Positions 4,838 through 5,919 of a DNA stretch of 46,426 bases are shown in pieces (position 1 is the first letter of the stretch; every line of letters begins with the position of its first letter). The stretch is from the NCBI GenBank assembly GCA_016786485.1, contig JAEUWD010000041.1:1-46426 (forward strand). Direction: 5' to 3'. The stretch comes from Bacteriovoracaceae bacterium (GTDB lineage: Bacteria > Bdellovibrionota > Bacteriovoracia > Bacteriovoracales > Bacteriovoracaceae). The translations under genes and the position numbers were made by a program. Under the pieces are notes generated by a model. It made no database searches. It saw nothing but the letters and a program-made list of their open reading frames with translations, and was not told the DNA's origin.

Positions 4838-5431
4838 TTAGTACTGACGAAGTAAGCCAACTAAGATCCCTTTTATCTCGAAAGATTCCTCACGGATGAT
4901 AAATGGTTTCATGTTTTTATTTGCAGGGTGAAGTTCAATGTGTTGTGGTTTTTTGAAATATTTTTTAATGGTGGCTTCTTGATTGATAGAGGCTACAACT
5001 GTTTCTCCGTTCTGGGCCATATTTTGTTTTTTGATAACAACAATATCTCCATCCAAAATCCCATCATCAATCATCGATTGACCTTCAACCACTAAAGCAT
5101 AGTGCTGACCCTTTTTGATAAAAGTTTGAGGCACGGTCACCGTTTCTTGACCCTCAATGGCCTCAATAGGTAAGCCTGCTGCTACTTTACCGAGCAGAGG
5201 TATCTCCATGGTAGGGACTTTTTGTTCTGATGTGCTTAAGCCTCTAACTGCGTTGCTATCATTGTGGAGGTAGCCAGCTTGGGTAAGATAATAAATATAA
5301 TCTTGAACTGAACCCAATGATTTGAATCCGAAATGTTCTTTGATTTCAGTTTGAGTTGGGGAGTAATCATTCTGAGCAATATATTCAACAATATAGTCAT
5401 AAACTTGTTTTTGTTTTTTGGTGAGGCTCAT
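4838..5431 (-). CDS. lexA: LexA repressor, SOS regulator
   Basis: A 197-residue transcriptional repressor of the DNA-damage response that cleaves itself when activated by RecA filaments. An N-terminal winged helix-turn-helix covers residues 1-65. The S24-type protease domain contains the scissile Ala85-Gly86 in VAAGLP, the nucleophile Ser119 in VEGQSM and the general base Lys156 in ATIKKY. The recognition helix region (GFKSLGSVQDYIYYL) differs from that of E. coli, so a different operator is expected. A unique array of CCGTA repeats lies in its own promoter. The ribosome site AAGGAG precedes the ATG. Confidence 0.97.
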   Translation of the reverse strand: MSLTKKQKQVYDYIVEYIAQNDYSPTQTEIKEHFGFKSLGSVQDYIYYLTQAGYLHNDSNAVRGLSTSEQKVPTMEIPLLGKVAAGLPIEAIEGQETVTVPQTFIKKGQHYALVVEGQSMIDDGILDGDIVVIKKQNMAQNGETVVASINQEATIKKYFKKPQHIELHPANKNMKPFIIREESFEIKGILVGLLRQY

Positions 5432-5443
5432 TGATTTCTCCTT

Positions 5444-5493
5444 CCGTATGTTTTCCGTAGAAATGATAATACCGTAAATTTTCCGTAGTACAA
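5444..5493 (-). promoter_or_regulatory. lexA promoter with tandem direct-repeat operators (predicted LexA boxes)
   Basis: On the minus strand a possible -35 TTGTAC (5488-5493), 16-bp spacer and -10 TATTAT (5466-5471) lie upstream of lexA. The spacer itself is a TACGG-N6-TACGG element (5472-5487), and a second copy lies downstream (5444-5459). CCGTA half-sites on the plus strand start at 5444, 5455, 5472 and 5483. The pairs are 11 bp apart and the two elements 28 bp apart. The elements agree at 15 of 17 positions when the preceding base is included. The placement across the spacer and start region is what a repressor operator would show. LexA binding is inferred. Confidence 0.65.
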
Positions 5494-5538: not shown

Positions 5539-5919
5539 ATGGACTATCAATTACCTTTCATTCTTTATGACAGTGAGTGCCAACTTTGTGTGAGGTTTAA
5601 ACAGGGCCTAGAAATGCTCGATAAAAATCATCAACTGCATTTTTACCCTCTGCAAGATGCCAAAGTTTTTACCCAATTTCCATTTCTTGATCCGCAGAAA
5701 GTCGAGCAGAAGGTGCATTTGGTAACAACAGAACAAAAGGTTTTAGAAGGTGGGGAAGTGGTGGAGTATCTCTTGAAGATGATCCCGGGAGTTGAGAAGT
5801 TCTCTTGGCTTCTCGACAATAACGTCAGTAAAAAAACGATGGGCTTTTTCTATGATACAGTCGATTTTCTAAGAAAGAATACCCATAGCTGTAACTCATG
5901 TTCGAAGGATAAAAAATGA
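5539..5919 (+). CDS. DCC-family thiol-disulfide oxidoreductase-like protein (DUF393)
   Basis: A 126-residue protein with the DCC-family signature near its N-terminus: LYDSECQLC, with Cys14 and Cys17 forming a CxxC after an aspartate. The length fits the family, which is thioredoxin-like and mostly uncharacterised. A second Cys cluster (HSCNSCSK) lies in the C-terminal tail and could bind metal or form disulfides. The gene diverges from lexA, so its promoter shares the 5432-5538 gap with the LexA operators and it could also be SOS-influenced. Its stop overlaps the next start as ATGA, coupling it to the SpoVG-like gene. Confidence 0.8.
   Translation: MDYQLPFILYDSECQLCVRFKQGLEMLDKNHQLHFYPLQDAKVFTQFPFLDPQKVEQKVHLVTTEQKVLEGGEVVEYLLKMIPGVEKFSWLLDNNVSKKTMGFFYDTVDFLRKNTHSCNSCSKDKK

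Follow-up and report, generated by a model that had tools for sequence, protein, structure and literature searches.

In E. coli and other Gammaproteobacteria, the LexA box is CTGT-N8-ACAG, at which a canonical LexA represses its own gene as well as the same core targets that are considered here. LexA boxes vary widely among phyla, 17 having been reported by 2021 (PMC8565304), and boxes built as direct repeats are known from the Alphaproteobacteria and, with gel shifts, from the Balneolaeota, in which the motif is TTACACATATTTTWTACATA and the regulon comprises lexA, recA, polymerases IV and V, a radical-SAM protein and an SOS peptidase (PMC7739468). For Bdellovibrio bacteriovorus the box was published as a TTAC-N3-GTAA palindrome (Campoy 2005, as quoted in PMC8565304). 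A search of the open-licence literature for LexA together with Bacteriovorax, Bacteriovoracaceae or Halobacteriovorax returned no earlier description. Here we report that TACGG direct repeats in the lexA promoter of a member of the Bacteriovoracaceae are almost certainly the LexA operator (SOS box) of this lineage, as judged from comparative sequence analysis, and that the same layout appears to govern DNA-damage genes throughout the family and to extend to Bdellovibrio.

The window, that is, the whole stretch of 46,426 nucleotides that was analyzed, contains a lexA gene at 4838..5431 on the minus strand. Its product of 197 amino acids has a LexA DNA-binding domain and an S24 peptidase domain, based on Pfam, NCBIfam and alignment to solved LexA chains, and its score against the NCBIfam lexA equivalog TIGR00498 (186.8 bits, cutoff 110.95) marks it as an authentic lexA gene. 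By sequence this is plainly a canonical two-domain LexA, and alignment with E. coli LexA placed the cleavage site at A85-G86 and the catalytic residues at S119 and K156, whose roles we take to be those generally known for LexA. The nearest named relatives of the protein are records from Bacteriovorax, Halobacteriovorax and the Bacteriovoracaceae. Read in the sense of lexA, on the minus strand, the promoter runs TTGTAC-TACGGAAAATTTACGG-TATTAT-CATTTC-TACGGAAAACATACGG-AAGGAG-AAATCA-ATG, with the ATG at 5431. The probable -35 hexamer TTGTAC (5488..5493, minus strand) was identified by consensus match only, although its position is conserved in relatives, and the probable -10 hexamer TATTAT (5466..5471, minus strand), 16 bp past the -35, likewise by consensus match only. 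Predicted operator element 1, TACGGAAAATTTACGG (5472..5487, minus strand), occupies the whole of the 16-bp gap between these hexamers, a position that is the same in relatives, and predicted element 2, TACGGAAAACATACGG (5444..5459, minus strand), starts roughly where transcription is predicted to begin and runs up to the probable ribosome-binding site AAGGAG (5438..5443, minus strand), which it touches. Both elements are exact matches to TACGG-N6-TACGG with a period of 11 bp, they are offset from one another by 28 bp, and between their ends and the lexA ATG there are 40 bp for element 1 and 12 bp for element 2. The earlier note had described four half-sites forming two pairs of 11-bp period, one of them filling a possible -35/-10 spacer, and had seen no other such cluster in the window; all of this held, there being no further exact match in the 46 kb. 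The TTAC-N3-GTAA palindrome does not occur in the window lexA promoter. Divergent from lexA, at 5539-5919 and about 50 bp from element 1, is a gene for a DCC1-like thiol-disulfide oxidoreductase (Pfam), which might be co-regulated.

In the whole genome of 2.98 Mb there are five exact copies of TACGG-N6-TACGG: two at lexA, one at recA and one at each of two umuDC operons, and all five start with TACGGAAAA. The recA site is 78 bp upstream of the gene and in the opposite orientation relative to it, which shows that the sites do not always lie in a -35/-10 spacer. The remaining two sites precede, by 17 and 29 bp, genes for small S24 peptidases, each with a Y-family polymerase gene immediately after it. 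From this arrangement we identified the gene pairs as umuDC operons; at one of these a SRAP gene is divergently oriented, 17 bp from the site. Beside this umuDC/SRAP operator there is a third TACGG half-site at another spacing (L005:1490-1516, minus strand TACGG-N6-TACGG-N4-TACGG). When up to three mismatches to a longer consensus were allowed, the genome yielded 105 matches versus 112 for the reversed-pattern control, which is no excess. A wider regulon in this genome is thus unsupported, and the detectable regulon comprises four promoters and, in addition, the SRAP gene in divergent orientation.

The repeat was conserved among relatives, in keeping with the suggestion in the earlier note of a lineage-wide operator. 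A lexA match was present in 93 of 115 family genomes, from which 97 lexA genes and their upstream DNA were extracted, and TACG-N7-TACG was exact in 95 of the 97 upstream regions, the remaining two matching at 7/8 bases. The commonest form is TTGAC-TTACGC-N5-TTACGC-N-TAnnnT, in which the repeat again fills the -35/-10 spacer; in most relatives TTGAC is found immediately 5' of the repeat, where the window lexA has TTGTAC. In four genomes the site is ~190-220 bp upstream, ahead of a short reading frame that precedes lexA. No TTAC-N3-GTAA was found in the named Bacteriovoracaceae lexA promoters that were scanned.

Beyond lexA, the motif was also found at SOS genes. Across the 115 family genomes, TTACGS-N5-TTACGS had 243 matches versus 91 for the reversed pattern, and an SOS gene lay within 600 bp at 72 of the 85 motif loci that were read, versus none of 30 reversed-pattern loci. 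The neighbors were members of the LexA/UmuD/UmuC group (36), RecA (31), SRAP (8), radical SAM (2), UvrA (2) and an ImuA-like protein (1), the last named from its sequence, with no Pfam or NCBIfam match. The other 13 loci have no recognized SOS gene nearby, and part of them are chance matches. For the TACGG-type genomes the raw count of TACGG-N6-TACGG was only weakly above the control (111 versus 88), and the evidence there consequently lies in position and in the spacer, which is strongly A-rich (first base A in 97/111 sites); 23 of 30 loci adjoin lexA/umuDC or recA, and one more recurrent site is upstream of a recN-like gene. The expectation in the earlier note of further sites upstream of SOS genes was therefore borne out, by recA and two umuDC operons in the own genome and, in relatives, also by imuA-like, uvrA, recN, SRAP and radical-SAM genes. 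Three loci (L145 in G104, L259 in G122 and G134:C254:154-192) carry four TTACGC half-sites at 11-bp steps, equivalent to three overlapping direct repeats, and the runs of L145 and L259 are located upstream of recA. In addition, genomes of a single genus conserve TTACGCACGACTTACGC close to a protein predicted to be secreted (L269, L274 and L275), with no recognized SOS gene near; these sites are possibly a lineage-specific target.

The family promoters fall into two classes, TTACGC and TACGG/T, and the class follows a residue of the LexA recognition helix. Residue 44 in the numbering of the window protein, which aligns without gaps to residue 45 of E. coli LexA, is D in the TACGG/T class, including the window (D44); in the TTACGC class it is R or K, or at times A or Q. 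Among lexA genes of the D type, 39 of 41 have mostly non-C half-sites and two are ties, whereas 50 of 56 non-D genes have mostly C half-sites and six are ties; none of the 97 genes contradicts the match. Three genomes (G006, G073 and G067) encode both LexA types, and the operator class matches each lexA, with one site mixed. In these paralog pairs (L045/L209, L196/L211 and L207/L231, respectively) the D-type genes have TACGG- or TACGA/G-type sites and the R- or Q-type genes TTACGC-type sites. Such genomes may represent an intermediate stage in a switch of operator through duplication. In a tree from which the helix columns had been excluded, each trait changes once, both on one well-supported branch. 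Statistical support from repeated covariation was thereby ruled out, and the shared branch is a suggestive coincidence rather than independent repeated covariation. We infer that R44 or K44 contacts the G opposite the C of the half-site, and that D44 contacts the C opposite the G.

The lexA types also differ in the number of elements, since 29 of the 41 promoters of the D type have two, compared with 6 of 36 R-type promoters and none of 18 K-type promoters. The repeat of the pairs after 28 bp, to which the earlier note had drawn attention, is correct for the window lexA but does not generalize, the offset being 28-36 bp in D-type promoters with two elements. A fixed 28-bp phasing was ruled out on this basis, and the variable offset indicates that the two elements are probably occupied independently.

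A phylum-wide search also supplied the lexA promoters of a family (f6) that we take, from sequence, to be the Bdellovibrionaceae, because its promoters hold TTACACTGTAA and that of L359 matches the promoter of the named Bdellovibrionales record L073. These promoters have the form TTGAC-TTACAY-N5-TTACAC-TGTAA, in which an 11-bp direct repeat, positioned as in the Bacteriovoracaceae, overlaps the palindrome. Exact TTAC-N7-TTAC was present in 26 of 30 promoters read; two genomes in this set belong to another family, and in one of these the direct repeat occurs without the palindrome. Across 14 f6 genomes, TTACAY-N5-TTACAY was found 66 times versus 12 for the reversed pattern, and the palindrome TTACASTGTAW 69 times versus 52 for its control, which is no clear enrichment. 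Thirty direct-repeat loci were read, and these included lexA (8), imuA-like genes (6), dinB (8), recA (2) and a radical-SAM repair gene (1), the polymerase, RecA and radical-SAM fragments being named from protein-family matches. The palindrome was beside the direct repeat at seven of the eight lexA loci and at all six imuA-like loci (L393, L394, L406, L409, L410 and L412), but at none of the dinB (L392, L395, L396, L398, L403, L407, L408 and L415), recA or radical-SAM sites. This distribution identifies the direct repeat as the element common to the SOS promoters, and the published palindrome may be a partial reading of the operator, a view that does not contradict the published experiment. 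The earlier note was right that the Bdellovibrio box had been reported as a different palindrome, yet the promoters of that family share TTACAY-N5-TTACAY as well, and the SOS operator of the window lineage, although distinct in sequence as the note proposed, is not isolated. In other families of the phylum, the lexA start regions of L242, L243, L245 and L247 have palindromic-looking sequences of approximately ACCATACA-NN-TGTATGGT.

Three alternatives to a LexA operator were considered. The exact fit of element 1 between the -35 and the -10 is what would be expected if the repeats were promoter sequence, either an extended -35/-10 or a chance A-rich run, but element 2 and the recA site are outside such a spacer, the five exact sites of the genome are all at SOS genes, and SOS loci were 72 of 85 for the motif against 0 of 30 for the controls; we regard this alternative as vanishingly improbable. 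LexA might instead read a palindrome that overlaps the repeat or is concealed in it, comparable with TTAC-N3-GTAA of Bdellovibrio, the direct repeat being incidental. The overlap of the two at lexA and imuA-like promoters of the Bdellovibrionaceae gives this idea some basis; however, a scan of lexA promoters from named Bacteriovoracaceae did not find the palindrome, and a strict 11-bp direct repeat is common to 97 lexA promoters, which makes such a reading very unlikely.

It could also be argued that another regulator of SOS genes binds the repeats and that LexA uses a different, unseen site, given that the case for LexA in this lineage is comparative. Against this, the half-site shifts together with the recognition helix of LexA, genomes with two LexA types pair each lexA with the matching operator class, and the sites are at lexA itself, the usual place of autoregulation, in all family genomes tested. 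We therefore give a separate regulator very little credence and regard LexA as almost certainly the protein that binds the repeats.

With LexA as the binding protein, each element is a tandem, non-inverted pair of half-sites with a period of 11 bp, or one turn of the helix, of the form TACGG-AWAA-NN-TACGG in the window and TTACGC-N5-TTACGC in most of the family. Each would probably take one LexA dimer whose two DNA-binding domains lie on one face of the DNA, the flexible linker allowing one domain to turn relative to the symmetric arrangement. Judging by its position in the promoter spacer, element 1 should prevent binding of RNA polymerase, and element 2, which covers the leader and the region of the start, should keep the polymerase from initiating or escaping and so tighten autorepression. 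Upon DNA damage, activated RecA would bring about self-cleavage of LexA at A85-G86, as the conserved residues suggest, with derepression of lexA, recA and the two umuDC operons.

Taking the two families together, we lean towards a TTACR-type 11-bp direct repeat as the LexA operator of both the Bacteriovoracaceae and the Bdellovibrionaceae, perhaps ancestral in this part of the phylum, with TTAC-N3-GTAA overlapping it at some promoters only. The box and regulon of Bdellovibrio would then need revision, with dinB and the radical-SAM gene added, and the change between R/K44 and D44 would have accompanied both the switch between TTACGC and TACGG and the doubling of the lexA operator. For a family with predatory bacteria among its members, these results give a candidate LexA operator together with a predicted SOS regulon. 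They also make the published Bdellovibrio box testable anew, in that what the SOS promoters of that group have in common is the direct repeat rather than the palindrome. Given the large differences in box between phyla, how LexA specificity changes is an open theme, for which the R/K-type and D-type proteins, at times in one genome, provide a natural two-state case.

The lexA promoters of other phyla place this operator in a wider context. The same scan recovered the GTTC repeat in alphaproteobacterial lexA promoters, in line with the statement in the earlier note that direct repeats one turn apart are used there. Direct repeats of 11 bp with related half-sites were also found, far above shuffled sequence, in lexA promoters of Acidobacteriota, of Patescibacteria-type genomes, of some Gammaproteobacteria and of one Neomarinimicrobiota. 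Repeats of the TTACGA or TTACGC type with an 11-bp period are present at lexA in L081 (Neomarinimicrobiota) and L068 (the Proteobacteria MAG SZUA-204). In view of these and of the described direct-repeat boxes, the window operator follows a known architecture and is new in its sequence. It shares with GTTC-N7-GTTC of the Alphaproteobacteria the direct repeat, the 11-bp period, a canonical two-domain LexA and SOS targets, but differs in its half-site (TTACGC or TACGG), its A-rich spacer, its phylum and, in the clade of the window, its doubled lexA operator. CTGT-N8-ACAG of E. coli and other Gammaproteobacteria differs in being an inverted repeat with another half-site. The Balneolaeota box is likewise a direct repeat, with a TTACA-like half-site and a similar regulon; however, that phylum is a different one, the period is 13 by our own count on the written consensus versus 11 here, and A follows TAC where the Bacteriovoracaceae have G. 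The box of Bdellovibrio bacteriovorus, although published as a short palindrome and with TTACAY in place of TTACGC/TACGG, has in common the phylum and the TTAC half-site, and the Bdellovibrionaceae have an 11-bp direct repeat at the same position, with sites at recA only in two genomes outside the main genus.
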